From positions 1 to 7,215 of the forward strand of contig JAMORD010000094.1 of assembly GCA_027063755.1 (NCBI GenBank): a DNA stretch of 7,215 nucleotides, read 5' to 3'. Below are positions 1 through 7,215 of the stretch, in pieces; the stretch's first letter is position 1; the number at the start of each line of letters is the position of its first letter. Both the position numbers and the translations under genes were made by a program. Source of the stretch: a bacterium. GTDB taxonomy: Bacteria; Coprothermobacterota; Coprothermobacteria; Coprothermobacterales; JAADFF01. A model generated the notes under the pieces. It saw nothing but the letters and a program-made list of their open reading frames with translations. It had not been told where the DNA came from and did no database searches.

Positions 1-2111
1 CCCTTAGCCATCTGCCTTGGAATACCACCAGGCCCAAGGGCTGTAATTCTTCTCTTATGTGTCAAAGATGCCAGTGGGTTTGTATCATCAAGCAGGTGAG
101 CAAGCTGGCCTTGGAAAAACAGTTTTAGTTGTTTCTGAAGTGGTCTATAAGAAAGGAAGCGAGAAGGCTTTGGAATAGCATCATCGGTGTAAGACAGCAT
201 GTTATCTCTGACAACCCTATTGACAAGAACCTTAAAGCCCTGTATAAGACTTGTATAAATAAGCTCACCGACAGCCCTAACTCTTCTATTACCCAAATGG
301 TCAATATCATCGGGCTCTTCTATACCTGCATAAAGCTTTAGAGGCATGGCAAACATCTCAACGAGGTCTTCTTCTGTAAGGTTTTCTTTTATCTCATGAC
401 CAAATCTACGGGCTATTCTATAAAGGGCTACCTCACCGAGATAGTTTCTCTGAGGATCAAACAAGAACCTTCTTACCCTCTCTTTGGCCTCTCTGGGATG
501 TGTCATTTCAGCAGTAGTTGTGATATTAAGGAGAGAATAGATAGAAATATATGCGGCATCACTGACAATCTTCTCCCATGGCACATCAAAATAGACATAG
601 TCCACTCTTCCACTTCTTATAACAAGCTCTTCAAAGCGTTTGACATCTTCTTCTTTAATTTCCCCTGCCTGCCAGACAACAGAAGAACCTATTTCAATCT
701 CTTCGTCTGTCTCTGCATTAATAACCTTGTCGCCGCATTTGGCGTATAGGGTATTATCAGCTGCATCAAAGAAATACTGGCATCCTTCTTCTATCATGGC
801 AGGATCAAGATCAAGTTTAATAAAGGCAAATACCTTATTACCGGCCTCATCGTATATACCATCTATAAGAATCTCGTAGACATTTTCATCGTCTTCATCG
901 CCCATCTCAAAGAGATATTCACCAGAGGCAGCATCTACAACTCCATCATCACAAACATACACAAACTTACCATCGGCAAATGCTGTAAAACATCCCTCTG
1001 GTGCTATAGGCACAGGCATACCAGGTGTGGAGCTAACAATAACATCTTTGGCAATCTTCCAACCTACTAAGTCTTTAGCTCTAATTTCCGTAAGATTATT
1101 TACAGGTACCTTGACAGTCATCTTAAACATGCCAGTCTTGATCTGTTCTGGCAGGATATGTTCCAAGAATTTTCTAAGAAGTCTCTCATCAAGCACAGTA
1201 CCTGCAGAGATAGCATAGTGAGAAGAGGCGACATCTGAAACAACCTCTGCACCATCAAGCAGTTTTACAAGTCTATCGTATATAGAAGGGATATTCCATA
1301 TCTCATGAATGTTATCTTGCTCCATATTGGTCTGAAGGATATGCTCAATGGTACCCTTCATTGCCGGATCATCAATGCCCTCCAGAGACTTCATAAGGCG
1401 CTCTTTTATAGAAAAATCGGATACATAGCCGAAAGCACGCATAAACAAGGAAACGGGAATATTCTTATACTTTCTGTCAAGTGTAATGGTAAATCTTGTG
1501 CGATTGGTATTACCCTGTTTTCTTTCCTTCAGTGAGACATCCACCCATGTACCTGTTTCTGGAATCAAACTAGCAAGCCACTCTCTTTCTCCTATCTGAA
1601 GGTATATACCGGGGCTTCTAATAATCTGGTTGACTATAACACGCTCAACACCGTTAACAATGAAAGTGGCTCTTTCAGTCATCCATGGAAGTGTTCCCAT
1701 ATTCACCCAATCTTCACGACTTTCACCTGTTTCCAAGTTGGTAATACGAGTTTTCAGTCTGATAGCCTTGGCGTAGTCTCTACCCTGATAACGACACTCT
1801 TCAGGGTCAAGCACTCGCTCTTCGCCGGCTATTTTCACCTTGATATCTTCAAAGGCAAAATCTATAAACTCAAGTCTCCACTTACCGTATTCAATAGGAG
1901 AAAATCTTTTAAGGAGTCTTTCAAACCAACCCCAGTGAATCTTGGGAATCTCATGTTCCTTGCCTTCGTTTTCTTCTCCCATTACTACCTTCTTGATAAA
2001 ATCATTAAAGGACTTACGCTGAATCTCAAGAAAGTCGGGATACTTCCAGTTGGGAACTTTCGTTATTTCTTTCTTCCCAATAAGTTCTTGCACCGTGACT
2101 CGTTTTGTCAT
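1..2111 (-). CDS. rpoB: RNA polymerase beta subunit, N-terminal part (3' end cut by window)
   Basis: This is the beta subunit of DNA-dependent RNA polymerase, which with beta' forms the catalytic core of transcription in the cytoplasm. 703 codons are visible, running off the left edge. Seen in the translation, numbered from ATG 2111: the N-terminal PDFLEIQRKSF (25-35), FIVNGVERVIVNQI then SPG (150-168), DDIDHLGNRRVR (about 602-612) and the rifampicin cluster I, TNPLASLTHKRRITALGPGG (677-696). These are classic RpoB landmarks, so identity is certain. E. coli DIDHLGNRR is near residue 445 but here it is near 604, so the lobe/domain-2 region is enlarged; residues about 373-476 contain a duplicated module. 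The start is ambiguous: ATG 2111 lies 11 nt from GGAGGGGTGAT, while the in-frame TTG at 2117 is better spaced; an in-frame TGA lies just upstream. The preceding gene is purD, not rplL. Confidence 0.97.
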   Translation of the reverse strand, partial: MTKRVTVQELIGKKEITKVPNWKYPDFLEIQRKSFNDFIKKVVMGEENEGKEHEIPKIHWGWFERLLKRFSPIEYGKWRLEFIDFAFEDIKVKIAGEERVLDPEECRYQGRDYAKAIRLKTRITNLETGESREDWVNMGTLPWMTERATFIVNGVERVIVNQIIRSPGIYLQIGEREWLASLIPETGTWVDVSLKERKQGNTNRTRFTITLDRKYKNIPVSLFMRAFGYVSDFSIKERLMKSLEGIDDPAMKGTIEHILQTNMEQDNIHEIWNIPSIYDRLVKLLDGAEVVSDVASSHYAISAGTVLDERLLRKFLEHILPEQIKTGMFKMTVKVPVNNLTEIRAKDLVGWKIAKDVIVSSTPGMPVPIAPEGCFTAFADGKFVYVCDDGVVDAASGEYLFEMGDEDDENVYEILIDGIYDEAGNKVFAFIKLDLDPAMIEEGCQYFFDAADNTLYAKCGDKVINAETDEEIEIGSSVVWQAGEIKEEDVKRFEELVIRSGRVDYVYFDVPWEKIVSDAAYISIYSLLNITTTAEMTHPREAKERVRRFLFDPQRNYLGEVALYRIARRFGHEIKENLTEEDLVEMFAMPLKLYAGIEEPDDIDHLGNRRVRAVGELIYTSLIQGFKVLVNRVVRDNMLSYTDDAIPKPSRFLSYRPLQKQLKLFFQGQLAHLLDDTNPLASLTHKRRITALGPGGIPRQMAK

Positions 2112-2122
2112 TTCCAAGCCCC

Positions 2123-2286: not shown

Positions 2287-3507
2287 AGTCTTGCCAATAT
2301 CACCACGATAAAACTTTCCTTCAAACACAACCTCCTTTGCCTTCTTATATGCTCTATTTATCGCCTCTTCATATGTATCTCCACTACCTACTACCACACA
2401 TGGACGCCAGCCCGATACAATCAATCTGCCCTCTTTCTCCCTAACATGGTCAAAGTATATACCATCGGTATTATTGGGGAGACCTATTACACTCTCTGTA
2501 TAGTGATACGGAGCCCCCTCAGATACAAGTGCTATGGCAACACTAACACCAGAAGGCTGTATTTTCTCTGGCAATCTACCAAATGCCGTGTCTTTAATCA
2601 TACGCACAAATCCATCGCTATCAAGTGGAACAATAGCTTCAGTCTCAGGATCCCCAAGCCTAACATTGTATTCCAGTACCCTTACACCATCTGGCGATGC
2701 CATAACCCCAAGATAGAGAAATCCTTCATATGCAAGCGATTCTTTCAACATGGCCTTCACTGTCCTACCAACAAGATCTTTTATTAGTTCAAACAGTTTA
2801 TCGTCTATACGAATAGGGGCCACTGCTCCCATACCACCTGTATTAGGTCCTCGGCCTCCGTCATACAATCGCTGATACTCCCATACCATAGGAAGAATGA
2901 CATAATCTCCCGAACTGATAAGCACCTGAACAGCATATTCTTCACCAGGAACAAACTGCTCTACAACCAATCCATCACTCCACATACCTTCAAATCCAGA
3001 TGTAATAACACGAGAACCAATATCCAGTGCTTCAGAAATTGTAGGTAATATAAATGACCCTTTTCCACCTTGGAGTGTAGGTATTTTTATAACATACGGA
3101 GGATCAAATTCTTTTAGAGCCCTTTCAAGCTGAGAAAGGGTATGGACTATACGAAAACGAGGTGTTGGAATATTATGTCTAACCATAAATTCCTTGGCAA
3201 ACACTTTATCTGCTTCAAGCATGGCAGACTTTGATGGCGCACCAATGACTTTTATACCTTCGTCTTTCAGCTTATCAACAACACCTAACACCATATACTC
3301 GGTAGGGCCAACAACAACAATATCTGGCTGAAACGACATAGTAGCATTAAAAAGACTATCCAATGTCTCATCTACATTTTTTATGGCAATACCACTTTTC
3401 TTCATTCCATCGTTACCGGGGATTACAAGCGTTTCAAACCCGCTATCTACAAATGCACGTGCTATGGCATGCTCTCTGGCTCCTGTTCCTAATATTGCTA
3501 TCCTCAT
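2278..3507 (-). CDS. purD: Phosphoribosylamine-glycine ligase (GAR synthetase)
   Basis: PurD catalyses the second step of de novo purine synthesis: phosphoribosylamine + glycine + ATP gives glycinamide ribonucleotide. It is a soluble cytoplasmic ATP-grasp enzyme. The 409-residue length is near the family norm. Visible marks are the N-terminal MRIAILGTGAREHAIA (1-16), VVVGPTEYMVLGVVDKL (64-80), ADKVFAKEFM (99-108), an ATP-grasp strand-loop YVIKIPTLQGGKGSF (138-152), RGPNTGGMGA (219-228) and the metal/ATP site LEYNVRLGDPETEAIVP (278-294), ending with a small C-terminal domain (320-409). The glycine-rich loop departs from the usual KADGLAAGKG, and YQR (211-213) sits where DHKR is common. From memory, the LEYNVRLGDPETE and DGGRGPNTGGMG stretches resemble Thermotoga PurD. 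ATG 3507 has an AAGGAGGG ribosome site 8 nt upstream. No other pur gene is visible. Confidence 0.95.
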   Translation of the reverse strand: MRIAILGTGAREHAIARAFVDSGFETLVIPGNDGMKKSGIAIKNVDETLDSLFNATMSFQPDIVVVGPTEYMVLGVVDKLKDEGIKVIGAPSKSAMLEADKVFAKEFMVRHNIPTPRFRIVHTLSQLERALKEFDPPYVIKIPTLQGGKGSFILPTISEALDIGSRVITSGFEGMWSDGLVVEQFVPGEEYAVQVLISSGDYVILPMVWEYQRLYDGGRGPNTGGMGAVAPIRIDDKLFELIKDLVGRTVKAMLKESLAYEGFLYLGVMASPDGVRVLEYNVRLGDPETEAIVPLDSDGFVRMIKDTAFGRLPEKIQPSGVSVAIALVSEGAPYHYTESVIGLPNNTDGIYFDHVREKEGRLIVSGWRPCVVVGSGDTYEEAINRAYKKAKEVVFEGKFYRGDIGKTLL

Positions 3508-3550
3508 ATTCTTATCCCTCCTTCATAGACACATATCATTTTACTTATCA

Positions 3551-3583
3551 AAAAGGAAAAAGAGAGCGGAGTACCCGCTCTCT
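3551..3583 (-). terminator. Intrinsic terminator of the histone/unknown-protein operon
   Basis: A perfect 9-bp inverted repeat, AGAGAGCGG (3561-3569) and CCGCTCTCT (3575-3583), has a 5-nt loop. In the minus direction it is followed by TTTTCCTTTTT. It lies about 20 nt past the stop codon of the 3604-4344 gene and before purD. This is a well-formed rho-independent terminator for leftward transcription. In the plus direction no U-run follows, so it is one-way. Confidence 0.85.
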
Positions 3584-3603
3584 ACTCTACGGAGGGATAG
3601 AAA

Positions 3604-4344
3604 TTATTTTAAAAGTGCAAGCACCTTATCTGCTTTTTCCGCAACATTCCTATCAAACAATGCCACCGTAGGCAACATCCATCTCATACGATATCTCATA
3701 TCACCGTCTTTATTCTCACCCAAGTATGCAAATTCTATGCGGCCAAAACCCACTTTCTTTTCCAGCTTGCGAGCTTCCCTAAGAAATCTCCTTGCCACAC
3801 CGGGCAGTTCATCAAATGTGTGAAGTTTGCCTTTCTGTCCTCTACTCTTTTCAAATGCCACTGTTATACCTACACTGTGAAAAGCATCAATAAGATGTGC
3901 CCACTTGTTTTTCTTAAAGAAAGCAAGCATCAAACTAGCCGCAGGAGTTCTCACAACCTCTATAATCTGAGGCTCTTCCAAATTATCGTCTTCTATCACC
4001 AGATTGACAACAAGATATGCCATGCCATGATACCCCTCAATGCGAGCCCACAGCTTAGCATTACCGGGAAGCTCCTCTACAACAGACTTTACCTCATAGT
4101 GAATGCCCTCTTCGTCTTCATATGTATCTCCCGGCTGTCTATTGTCAGATGTTGGTGCAGAAAAATATGTCATTTGACCACCTTTCATACCATAAAGCAG
4201 GTCAATACCCAGTCTTTTCAACAGCTTGACATTATATTCTCTTGCCTTTTCAGGCTGACCTACTGTCTCAAATACCAGTGTACCAAGGGCCATTTCTTCT
4301 TTCTCTGTAAGAACCTCAGGATCAACCCACACCCTATGTTTCAT
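3604..4344 (-). CDS. Conserved-looking protein of unknown function, histone-operon partner
   Basis: I do not recognise this 246-residue protein. It has no signal peptide, membrane helix or cysteine cluster, so it is probably soluble and cytoplasmic. The translation is rich in charged residues. A likely beta-rich middle (LWARIEGYHGMAYLVVNLVI, about 99-118) is followed by alternating helices and strands, including SVGITVAFEKSRGQKGK (about 157-173), a basic helix RRFLREARKLEKK (about 185-197), and a final RYRMRWMLP strand with a terminal helix. I see no known catalytic motif. The start chosen is ATG 4344, 7 nt after GGAGG; the ATG two codons earlier abuts the Shine-Dalgarno and is unlikely. Its ribosome site begins directly at the stop codon of the DUF1931 gene, with 12 nt between the genes, so the two are almost surely co-transcribed and probably translationally coupled. 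A terminator follows. A role linked to the histone is only inference from this pairing. Confidence 0.85.
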   Translation of the reverse strand: MKHRVWVDPEVLTEKEEMALGTLVFETVGQPEKAREYNVKLLKRLGIDLLYGMKGGQMTYFSAPTSDNRQPGDTYEDEEGIHYEVKSVVEELPGNAKLWARIEGYHGMAYLVVNLVIEDDNLEEPQIIEVVRTPAASLMLAFFKKNKWAHLIDAFHSVGITVAFEKSRGQKGKLHTFDELPGVARRFLREARKLEKKVGFGRIEFAYLGENKDGDMRYRMRWMLPTVALFDRNVAEKADKVLALLK

Positions 4345-4356
4345 AATCATCCCTCC

Positions 4357-4800
4357 TCATAGGATAAGGTCAATAGCAGACAAGGCCTTTTCTACTTCAG
4401 TAGCGGTAGGTTTGCGAGTATCTTCAGATATAGTCTTAATAACACGGCCAGATAAGAGAAGCAGTGTTCCCACAAGCTCTGGCAAGATTTCAACGACCTC
4501 CTTAGATAGGGGCACCCACTTACCAAGCTTAAGATAGGCAATAATAGGCTCAACATCAATCTCCTCTTCAATCTCATGAAACTTTTTCATATACTCCTTA
4601 ATGCCCTTTGTCAGAGGAATGTCATCAAGAACAACCTCTTCAGCCTTTCTTCTCTCGGCCTTTTCCATAGCAATGTCAAACATGTCCCTTAATACCCTTT
4701 CTGTGTGCTCAATAATCCTTTCTGCCTTGCTCTTATCAATATCAAGACCAACACCTCGGCGAAACAGAATCTGAAGTTTTTTGTAAGAAGCTACACCCAC
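4357..4800 (-). CDS. DUF1931 family histone-fold protein (two histone folds in one chain)
   Basis: The 147-residue product matches, from memory, the DUF1931 family typified by Aquifex Aq_328 and a Thermus homologue, whose structures show two histone-like helix-strand-helix units in one polypeptide. Shared landmarks are LFRRGVGLDIDKSK (12-25), a long helix (26-53), VVLDDIPLTKGIKEYMKKF (56-74), VEPIIAYL (83-90), LSKEVVEILPELVGTLLLLS (98-117) and the C-terminal helix ATEVEKALSAIDLIL (133-147). Length equals the family norm. Members are presumed cytoplasmic; DNA binding and cellular role are not firmly established, so chromatin function is inference. The start is GTG 4800, with AGGAG 9 nt upstream; the earlier ATG at the Shine-Dalgarno is in another frame. 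The TGA stop runs straight into the ribosome site of the next gene. It is the first gene of a two-gene operon, divergent from the methyltransferase. Confidence 0.88.
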   Translation of the reverse strand: MGVASYKKLQILFRRGVGLDIDKSKAERIIEHTERVLRDMFDIAMEKAERRKAEEVVLDDIPLTKGIKEYMKKFHEIEEEIDVEPIIAYLKLGKWVPLSKEVVEILPELVGTLLLLSGRVIKTISEDTRKPTATEVEKALSAIDLIL

Positions 4801-4872
4801 AAATATCCTCTCCTTTCATAATTTTATGTGCACTTTTCATGTACCATATTAGAAAAAAGGGTATTCAAGACT
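4801..4872. promoter_or_regulatory. Divergent intergenic region between histone operon and methyltransferase operon
   Basis: Only 72 bp separate the two divergent start codons, so both promoters must lie here or extend into the opposite genes. Candidate -10 boxes are TAAAAT on minus (4821-4826) and ATATTA on plus (4846-4851). Neither has a convincing -35 partner. A single controlling protein could affect both operons. The promoter calls are weak. Confidence 0.35.
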
Positions 4873-5622
4873 ATGAGAACAAATGCTATAAATTACTACA
4901 ACCAATTGGGAAATACCTACGATAAAGGATATAGTTCTTCCTATTGGCTTCTTGAACTGGCTGTCTCACTGACCCAGATTAAACAATATATATCCGGCGA
5001 AACGCTGCTTATTGATATTGGAGCAGGTACAGGCACATACACATATCATCTAAAGCACTTTGTAAAAGACATTAAGGCCATTGAACCTGCTCCCAACATG
5101 GCAAAGGAGTTTCGTAAGAAAAATCCAGACATTGACATTTATATTGCTCGGGCAGAAGAAATACCATTCCCAGATAATAGTTTTCATGTAGCCATAGCCA
5201 TGGGAGATGTGCTCAGCTATGTGGACAATCTGGAAATAGCTTTACAGGAAATACACCGTATTCTCAAACCTGAAGGTTATCTCATAGCATCTGTTGATAA
5301 CTTCCACTTCTTTATCAAAGATGTCTTGAAATACGGTCTGCCATCAGACATAAATAAGATTAAGAGTACAGGAAAAACGGTTATTGGCAATGCATCTTTG
5401 CATTTTGAAACACAAACCTTTCGGCATACAGAGATTCCCCAGATGGCAAATCAATTTGGCTTTATACATAAAGATATGATTTTCAAACTGGCAGCTTTTA
5501 CAGAAGACGATGATATTTCCGATATTAATTATGGTGTATCTATTGAATTTCAACTTAATCGTCAAGTGGAATATATAGGCAACGCACAACATATACAGTT
5601 TGTATGGCAAAAAAGAAGGTGA
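4873..5622 (+). CDS. Class I SAM-dependent methyltransferase (type 11 / UbiE-like)
   Basis: This 249-residue protein has the full class I Rossmann methyltransferase order: an N-terminal helical cap beginning YYNQLGNTYDKGY (8-20), motif I LLIDIGAGTGTY (45-56) for SAM binding, the acidic end of strand 2 IEPAPNM (70-76) for the ribose hydroxyls, AEEIPFPDNSFHVAIAMGDV (94-113) covering the adenine contact and motif post-II, and EIHRILKPEGYLIAS (126-140). The C-terminal part (about 145-249) is a substrate-specific cap that I cannot assign, so the methyl acceptor is unknown. It is probably cytoplasmic. An upstream in-frame GTG at 4828 lacks a ribosome site; ATG 4873 has AAAAAAGGG about 11 nt before it and begins where family similarity begins, so I prefer it. 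The next gene starts 4 nt after the stop, so they form an operon; a substrate link to the transporter is speculative. Confidence 0.88.
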   Translation: MRTNAINYYNQLGNTYDKGYSSSYWLLELAVSLTQIKQYISGETLLIDIGAGTGTYTYHLKHFVKDIKAIEPAPNMAKEFRKKNPDIDIYIARAEEIPFPDNSFHVAIAMGDVLSYVDNLEIALQEIHRILKPEGYLIASVDNFHFFIKDVLKYGLPSDINKIKSTGKTVIGNASLHFETQTFRHTEIPQMANQFGFIHKDMIFKLAAFTEDDDISDINYGVSIEFQLNRQVEYIGNAQHIQFVWQKRR

Positions 5623-5626
5623 TGAT

Positions 5627-7215
5627 ATGAGGAAATTAGCCAGAGTTTTAGTCTTTGTATTGATACTGCTTAGTATATCCTTGCCTTCAGCAGATGCCTC
5701 TACTATAGAAACTATCGGTATCCCAGATGTTCACATACCCGACCCATTGCTCATTGAAAATCCCACGGATTTCTGGCTCTCATCTCTTATATGGCAACCA
5801 TTAACATGGTATGAAAATGGACAGGTATACCCAGTCATAGCAGAAAGCTGGACATCATCAGGCACATTGTGGACCTTCAAAATAAAAAAGCACCTCACAT
5901 GGAAAGATGGTAGTACTCTCACCGCCACCGATGTAGTGAACACATATAATTACTTGCTACACATGCCTATAAATCACCGTAGAGGGGCTACCATATGGCT
6001 GCTCATAAGCAATATTAGAAGTGTAGAAACGGCATCCGATAACACTGTCGTTTTCCAGCTTTACAAACCCTATGGAGACTTTGCCAAAGATGTCACTTCA
6101 AATGTATTCATACTTCCCAAACACCTAAGAAACTATAAAATGAAAACACACAATATTTGGGGCAGCGGAATGTACTATGTGAACAAAACAACCTCAGAAA
6201 ATATAGTGCTAAAACGAAACCCCAATTATAAAGGTTATGTTCCTTATCCTGAAACATTGATATTTACCAGTAATCTATCTAAAACTAATAACTATATAAC
6301 ATATCCCGCACCACATGGTACTCAGCAATATCACATATCACTAAGGCTTGTCTTCAACACCAAAAAACAACCTTTTACCACTTGGCCCTATAGATACTTG
6401 CTAATAACCACATTACCTTACAACAAACTTACCACAACAGGGACAGCAGGCACACCTTGTCTTATGAAAAGTCCTCTGTGTCATTCCAGTCTACATATTG
6501 ATAGGCTAGTATTTGATGCCAATGAGTTCATAGAAAACTACAGCATAGACATAGATAGACTCCAAAACCTCACATTGGCTGTGCCTCCGTTTCTTGAAGA
6601 TGTTGCTCAAAAAATAGTCCAGGGCTGGAAAAAAATAGGTATACATGTTAACATAAAAACAGTTCCACTTTACACTATGCTTCACAATCCCCCAGATGTC
6701 AATATGATTATCATTCCCATAGGGGGAAGCACAAGCCCTTATACACTGGCATCACCTGACTTTCCTTTCTGTCAATGGAACTATCCCAACTTTTTCATCA
6801 AACTATCTGAAGGCATAACAGGTGATCATACCAAATTAGTAACAGCACTGGAAATACTTGACTATACATATCCAAGCACAACCATACAATTTCCTAAAGT
6901 CTATATCAACCTCAAAACCCCATACCTGAAAAAGCATATAGCAGGCTTAGGTATCCCTATGCTGACATCTCCCATTGACGATCCGACGATTGGTTTGTAT
7001 ATACCACCAGAAGAAACTACAGGAACAGCCAGTACAAGTACCACAGCTGGTATAACCAATAAACGGCTCACATACTTCAAAATGGGCCTCATAGCTGTCA
7101 TAGTCATCTCACTAATACTGCTACTTCTTATTTTCTTAGTGCCACGAATAAAAACACTCTGGACAAAAATCATTCATTTTCCTACCCTACTTGTTTTTGG
7201 AAGCATTGGCAGCCT
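5627..7215 (+). CDS. ABC transporter family-5 substrate-binding protein, membrane-anchored, possibly fused to permease (3' end cut)
   Basis: 529 codons are visible and the frame is open at the right edge. Residues 1-24 form a signal peptide (KLAR, hydrophobic 7-19, ADA before S25) without a lipobox Cys. Residues about 45-455 resemble SBP_bac_5 (DppA/OppA/NikA): LIWQPLTWYENGQVYPVIAE (54-73), TFKIKKHLTWKDGSTLTATD (83-102), VVFQLYKPY (141-149), ILPKH (162-166), GSGMYYV (179-185), LKRNPNYKGY (195-204) and IVQGWKKIGIHVNI (330-343). Such proteins bind peptides, nickel chelates or sugars outside the membrane. The body is somewhat shorter than usual. Cys278 and Cys285 could form a disulfide. A Thr/Ser-rich linker (463-476) leads to a membrane helix (about 486-505), a basic stretch PRIKTLWTK (506-514) and the start of another hydrophobic run (515 on). 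An AAGGTGAT ribosome site overlaps the methyltransferase end. Confidence 0.85.
   Translation, partial: MRKLARVLVFVLILLSISLPSADASTIETIGIPDVHIPDPLLIENPTDFWLSSLIWQPLTWYENGQVYPVIAESWTSSGTLWTFKIKKHLTWKDGSTLTATDVVNTYNYLLHMPINHRRGATIWLLISNIRSVETASDNTVVFQLYKPYGDFAKDVTSNVFILPKHLRNYKMKTHNIWGSGMYYVNKTTSENIVLKRNPNYKGYVPYPETLIFTSNLSKTNNYITYPAPHGTQQYHISLRLVFNTKKQPFTTWPYRYLLITTLPYNKLTTTGTAGTPCLMKSPLCHSSLHIDRLVFDANEFIENYSIDIDRLQNLTLAVPPFLEDVAQKIVQGWKKIGIHVNIKTVPLYTMLHNPPDVNMIIIPIGGSTSPYTLASPDFPFCQWNYPNFFIKLSEGITGDHTKLVTALEILDYTYPSTTIQFPKVYINLKTPYLKKHIAGLGIPMLTSPIDDPTIGLYIPPEETTGTASTSTTAGITNKRLTYFKMGLIAVIVISLILLLLIFLVPRIKTLWTKIIHFPTLLVFGSIGS

Follow-up and report, generated by a model that had tools for sequence, protein, structure and literature searches.

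What does a bacterial histone-fold protein do when its gene is joined almost without a gap to that of a second protein? The question arises from a 7,215-nucleotide window comprising a whole contig (C94) of a bacterial genome of 1.5 Mb and 88% completeness. A sequence-only reading had left the second protein unassigned, reporting no known motif in it, and had suggested an undescribed chromatin or nucleic-acid system. We report that the two genes, DUF1931 and UPF0128, form a conserved coupled unit, and we tentatively connect it with heat-related protein quality control.

Organization and conservation of the locus

The minus strand carries, in order, DUF1931, UPF0128, a terminator, purD, and rpoB, and the plus strand carries divergent genes for a methyltransferase and a solute-binding protein. 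The features considered here are:

4801..4865, no strand: short spacer that separates DUF1931 from the divergent methyltransferase gene, conserved (near-identical over ~50 bp) in the sister species
4357..4800, minus strand: gene of the DUF1931 (PF09123) protein, a predicted double histone fold of 147 aa, with a GTG start and the stop codon TGA at 4359-4357
4351..4359, minus strand: this TGA continuous with GGAGGG, the Shine-Dalgarno sequence of the UPF0128 gene, as read from the sequence; the equivalent in the sister genome (locus L027) is TAAGGGGGG
3604..4344, minus strand: gene of the UPF0128/TIGR00703 protein (PF03673, TIGR00703), 246 aa, with an alternative ATG at 4350
3561..3583, minus strand: intrinsic terminator, a 10-pair stem followed by TTTTCCTTTT, also found in L027
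2278..3507, minus strand: purD (phosphoribosylamine-glycine ligase, GARS domains), separated from the pair by the terminator and outside the unit
4828..5622, plus strand: divergent SAM methyltransferase (Methyltransf_11, E = 6.7e-20), outside the unit

On the minus strand the junction reads CTA TGA GGAGGG ATG ATT ATG AAA CAT. The best-spaced ATG after GGAGGG is that at 4344, which yields the 246-residue protein; the ORF listing begins two codons earlier, at 4350. The continuity of the DUF1931 stop codon with the ribosome site of the next gene, described from the sequence beforehand, is thus confirmed, and the same holds for the single terminator said to serve both genes: the site at 3583-3561, strong and with a T run after the stem, is the sole terminator-like site found within 3400-5000. 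The spacer at 4801..4865 presumably holds the promoter and the ribosome-binding site.

The sister species retains the gene order, the terminator, the upstream spacer, and the coupled junction, which there reads TAA GGGGGG ATATGT GTG. Comparison of the two species shows mostly synonymous codon changes in UPF0128 (85 synonymous, 10 non-synonymous) and in DUF1931 (56 and 3, respectively), unlike in the fast-changing divergent methyltransferase gene (69 and 67; plus strand, here taken as 4873-5622). Since the arrangement is kept and nearly all changes in the pair are silent, the observation goes beyond chance: both genes are real and under purifying selection, and together they constitute a conserved coupled two-gene unit.

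Other proteins encoded nearby have peculiarities of their own. RpoB (3-2117, minus strand) seems to contain a long acidic insertion, at approximately residues 340-490, by which the domain match is interrupted, positions 4-178 of the Rpb2_1 profile being stretched across residues 31-637. The SBP_bac_5 solute-binding protein (5600-7213, plus strand) is fused to a membrane segment, and an SBP_bac_5 protein of the sister genome (L005:564-3770, minus strand) carries a long tail in which LSQEEIEKL units recur.

The two protein families

The DUF1931 protein matches PF09123 over profile positions 2-135 of 138 (E = 1.7e-31; 109.7 bits at a curated cut-off of 21.8), and phmmer aligns it over its full length with two double histone folds of solved structure, 1wwi (2.2e-15) and 1r4v (1.3e-8). 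By sequence similarity it is thus predicted to contain two histone folds in one chain, in agreement with the initial reading. It resembles the pseudodimeric histones Aq_328 of Aquifex (1R4V) and TTHA1479 of Thermus (1WWI) in length, in two folds per chain, in acidity, and in scoring above the Pfam cut-off, but differs from them in lying on a long separate branch (2.4 changes per site), apart from the chaperone-linked clades described below, and in its direct coupling to UPF0128. Its net charge is -3 and its pI 5.6, the pI of its relatives being acidic as well; an RKPT-like loop is kept in the sequence of the second half. A weak PHROG match to an SSB family (E = 0.13) was dismissed.

Structural surveys describe DUF1931 proteins as devoid of conventional histone DNA-binding residues (PMC11390915, PMC12701072), and a function outside genome organization has been considered possible (PMC11390915, PMC12701072, PMC13088155). 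A 2026 review calls the role of the double-histone-fold members unclear (PMC13088155), and the Thermus DUF1931 gene TT_C1115 figures in a discussion of unknown-function genes in which transposon hits are infrequent (PMC13140390).

The partner proved assignable after all. It belongs to UPF0128, with E = 1.7e-73 for PF03673 and E = 3.4e-71 for TIGR00703 (239.3 bits at an NCBIfam cut-off of 155.4; profile positions 2-223 of 223). The match to the family is full-length (239-247 bits), and residues invariant in the alignment are retained; compared with most UPF0128 proteins of Aquificota, the window protein is longer by ~10 residues at its N terminus and has a short insert around positions 119-129. 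Modeling by AF2 on 25 sequences gave a confident structure (pLDDT 90.1, pTM 0.85), whose matches to solved folds are weak (TM ~0.2 or less in Foldseek where the alignment is long; Z no higher than 4.2 in VIA). Matches this weak are evidence neither of novelty nor of a known fold. A PDB sequence search found no relative of solved structure. PilM, Arp2/3, and antibody domains appeared in these structure searches as unrelated low-scoring hits and were not used, and a literature lead to COG2047 concerned an unrelated Nop10-linked protein. No UPF0128 was found in the plasmid search. Some genomes of family f261 (L096/L097 of G494; L098 of G498) carry two UPF0128 copies, one of them very divergent and outside the cluster. 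Both DUF1931 and UPF0128 are catalogued families, and neither has an assigned function.

Gene neighborhoods and co-occurrence

The neighborhoods of DUF1931 were covered on plasmids and in two Thermus-like genomes. In one of the latter (L031), the same-strand run grpE-dnaJ-clpB-baeRF-hsp20-metallophosphoesterase-hsp20 is followed by DUF1931, parted from the last hsp20 by a terminator- and promoter-like stretch. Within this interval (L031:7602-7720), a GC-rich inverted repeat is followed by TTGACAATGCTATTGTCAA, a palindrome that overlaps a -35-like site and is perhaps regulatory. In Rhodococcus and Nocardia, DUF1931 ends a (dnaK-grpE-)dnaJ-cbpM-clpB-trxA run; it adjoins groES-groEL and hsp20 in Nostocales, and dnaK-clpB-hsp20 in two Azospirillum species. 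Two hsp20 genes lie near a DUF1931 fragment in Aquicella, where a second DUF1931-like stretch is situated beyond a transposon, and in G370 a Lon protease fragment lies at most 1.5 kb away. No chaperone neighbor of DUF1931 was found in Streptomyces, RHA1, or families f13 and f236. These chaperone associations of DUF1931 extend over several phyla other than Aquificota. Chance linkage in so many unrelated hosts is unlikely, given that ClpB-type proteins and GroEL occur on only 2,044 and 1,308 of 72,556 plasmids, respectively, although these plasmid-wide counts give a scale and are not a matched control; the chaperone background is not negligible, one of two 40-kb plasmid controls containing an Hsp20/J-domain group. 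In contrast to these clusters and to the pseudodimeric histones named above, DUF1931 of the window's genus does not adjoin chaperone genes, and none was found next to the pair at the window locus.

The expectation that the pairing would recur across genomes stands only in a loose form. Among 386 related bacterial genomes, immediate adjacency with stop-to-ribosome-site coupling was seen only in two species of the window's genus; what does recur is co-occurrence and, in Aquificota, looser linkage. Convincing matches in these 386 genomes number six for UPF0128, eight for DUF1931, 10 for DUF505, and four for prefoldin alpha; not counted are weak prefoldin matches inside long frames in G218, G256, G287, and G336 and, in G240, a partial UPF0128 match (E = 4e-5) within a frame of 605 aa. 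The four prefoldin-bearing genomes are exactly those that have both UPF0128 and DUF1931, and all four have DUF505. The UPF0128-prefoldin association (Fisher 1.6e-8) falls to ~1e-4 after collapsing to families, and that of UPF0128 with DUF1931 then reaches only 2e-3, both resting on two lineages. In 136 genomes of the phylum of G306, which we read as Aquificota from gene content and an Aquifex-like member (G387), UPF0128 is convincing in 46, DUF1931 in 52, and both in 41 (Fisher 4e-19, uncorrected for phylogeny). Each gene also occurs without the other: UPF0128 in G051 and G104, DUF1931 in Thermus-like genomes and on plasmids. Part of this pattern could stem from thermophily in common or from genes transferred from archaea; the control genome of M. 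jannaschii holds UPF0128, DUF505, and prefoldin.

In 13 Aquificota genomes, all of family f260, UPF0128 precedes DUF1931 on the same strand at a distance of 2.8-4.2 kb. The intervening genes encode a member of a 240-aa family, here called X, two membrane proteins, prefoldin alpha (PF02996, E = 9e-26), and in many cases YfdX, forming the operon-like run UPF0128-X-prefoldin alpha-YfdX-TM1-TM2-DUF1931 in L100 and L102, and the same without YfdX in L105. Aquifex-like loci (L093, L095) have the run prefoldin alpha-TM1-TM2-UPF0128-X-PFDb-DUF505, where PFDb is short and prefoldin-beta-like, and DUF1931 is located elsewhere. DUF505 comes after UPF0128 in another phylum as well (L025, L062-L064, L111, L112), and in G306 it stands beside the same two membrane proteins.

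Family X has no Pfam family and scores below the NCBIfam cut-off. A search with its profile (alignment A1) recovers the Csm5 proteins of type III-A loci. Its AF2 model (pLDDT 90.8) aligns with Csm5 chains as well, TMq reaching 0.65 and the probability 1.00; by profile and model, we identify it as a predicted stand-alone Csm5-like RAMP protein. In L022, L023, L093-L109, and related Aquificota loci, the gene lies directly after UPF0128, mostly before prefoldin, and outside CRISPR loci. It had no match in the two genomes of the window's genus (G000, G001) or in G051 and G104, and it is therefore dispensable for UPF0128.

The UPF0128 gene of the window has DUF1931 as its partner in place of the Csm5-like gene of most Aquificota clusters checked. 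The window's genome does encode prefoldin alpha (contig C87, E = 1.4e-16) and DUF505 (contig C55, E = 2.9e-103), but both lie on contigs other than that of the pair, and the window has no prefoldin gene. In the sister genome, the two membrane proteins were not found within 1.12 of 1.4 Mb. That genome, which also encodes GroEL/GroES, has a prefoldin alpha gene (L145:4637-5077, plus strand) and, after it, an ORF that is very short (57-aa frame) and weakly prefoldin-beta-like. Prefoldin (GimC) is normally regarded as archaeal and eukaryotic. Here, the hosts are bacterial, with GroEL/GroES in the sister genome, and its phyletic pattern tracks the pair; in the open-access literature we found no described prefoldin system with histone-fold or UPF0128 partners.

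Possible function of the pair

Genomic context, from which alone the mechanism is inferred, makes it a nearly even prospect that the proteins of the unit have an accessory role in heat-related quality control of proteins. The DUF1931 pseudodimer would serve as a protein-protein module, not as a DNA-wrapping histone. TAF-type histone folds are used in this manner. UPF0128 may be its partner or adaptor, direct contact between the two being a guess; in the window's genome, the pair would act with the prefoldin encoded elsewhere, holding or handing over unfolded clients at high temperature. A protein-binding histone fold in quality control appears the most likely reading given the published lack of DNA-binding residues, the acidic charge, and the chaperone context. 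The last of these may not transfer to the window protein with its long branch, which lowers our confidence in a function shared with the chaperone-linked clades.

The same three observations tell against the chromatin or nucleic-acid system proposed initially, in which DUF1931 would be a DNA-binding histone modified or assisted by UPF0128. The histone fold itself and the RKPT-like loop are in its favor, as is the Csm5-like RAMP of the Aquificota clusters, whose fold is RNA-binding in type III CRISPR; but the neighbors of DUF1931 are chaperone rather than DNA genes, and no Csm5-like gene was found in the window's genome, so that we regard this interpretation as very improbable. Only slightly better placed, and still distinctly unlikely, is an RNA-related stress complex in which UPF0128, the Csm5-like RAMP, and prefoldin would be RNA-protein or ribosome-associated, with DUF1931 as a scaffold. 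The Csm5-like gene is directly 3' of UPF0128 in most Aquificota clusters checked and its model agrees with Csm5 structures, yet it is missing from the window's genus, G051, and G104, and it stands outside any CRISPR locus.

The pairing might instead be an accident of this lineage, in which two accessory genes of thermophiles, perhaps gained in separate events, happen to lie side by side under one promoter and have no joint function. This would fit immediate adjacency in two species of one genus only, as well as the differing relatedness of the two proteins, UPF0128 being ~55% identical to its Aquificota counterparts and DUF1931 lying on a far longer branch. Nevertheless, coupling, terminator, and strong purifying selection have been maintained between the species, and the independent linkage in Aquificota and the phyletic pattern shared with prefoldin also weigh against an accident, which we consider rather unlikely.

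The quality-control reading has a broader version, which we put forward as a speculative and somewhat doubtful proposal: DUF1931 would be a conserved co-factor of the heat-shock machinery rather than a chromatin protein, and UPF0128, DUF505, the stand-alone Csm5-like protein, the two membrane proteins, and bacterial prefoldin would make up an undescribed protein-quality-control system of thermophiles, of which the window pair would be a reduced form. In the open-access literature, we found no relevant paper linking DUF1931 to chaperone genes or treating bacterial prefoldin or a UPF0128-prefoldin cluster. The link between DUF1931 and chaperone genes in several unrelated lineages offers a direct and cheap heat-shock and aggregation hypothesis beside that of nucleoid binding. 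UPF0128 and DUF505 gain a genomic context, and attention is drawn to prefoldin in bacteria.
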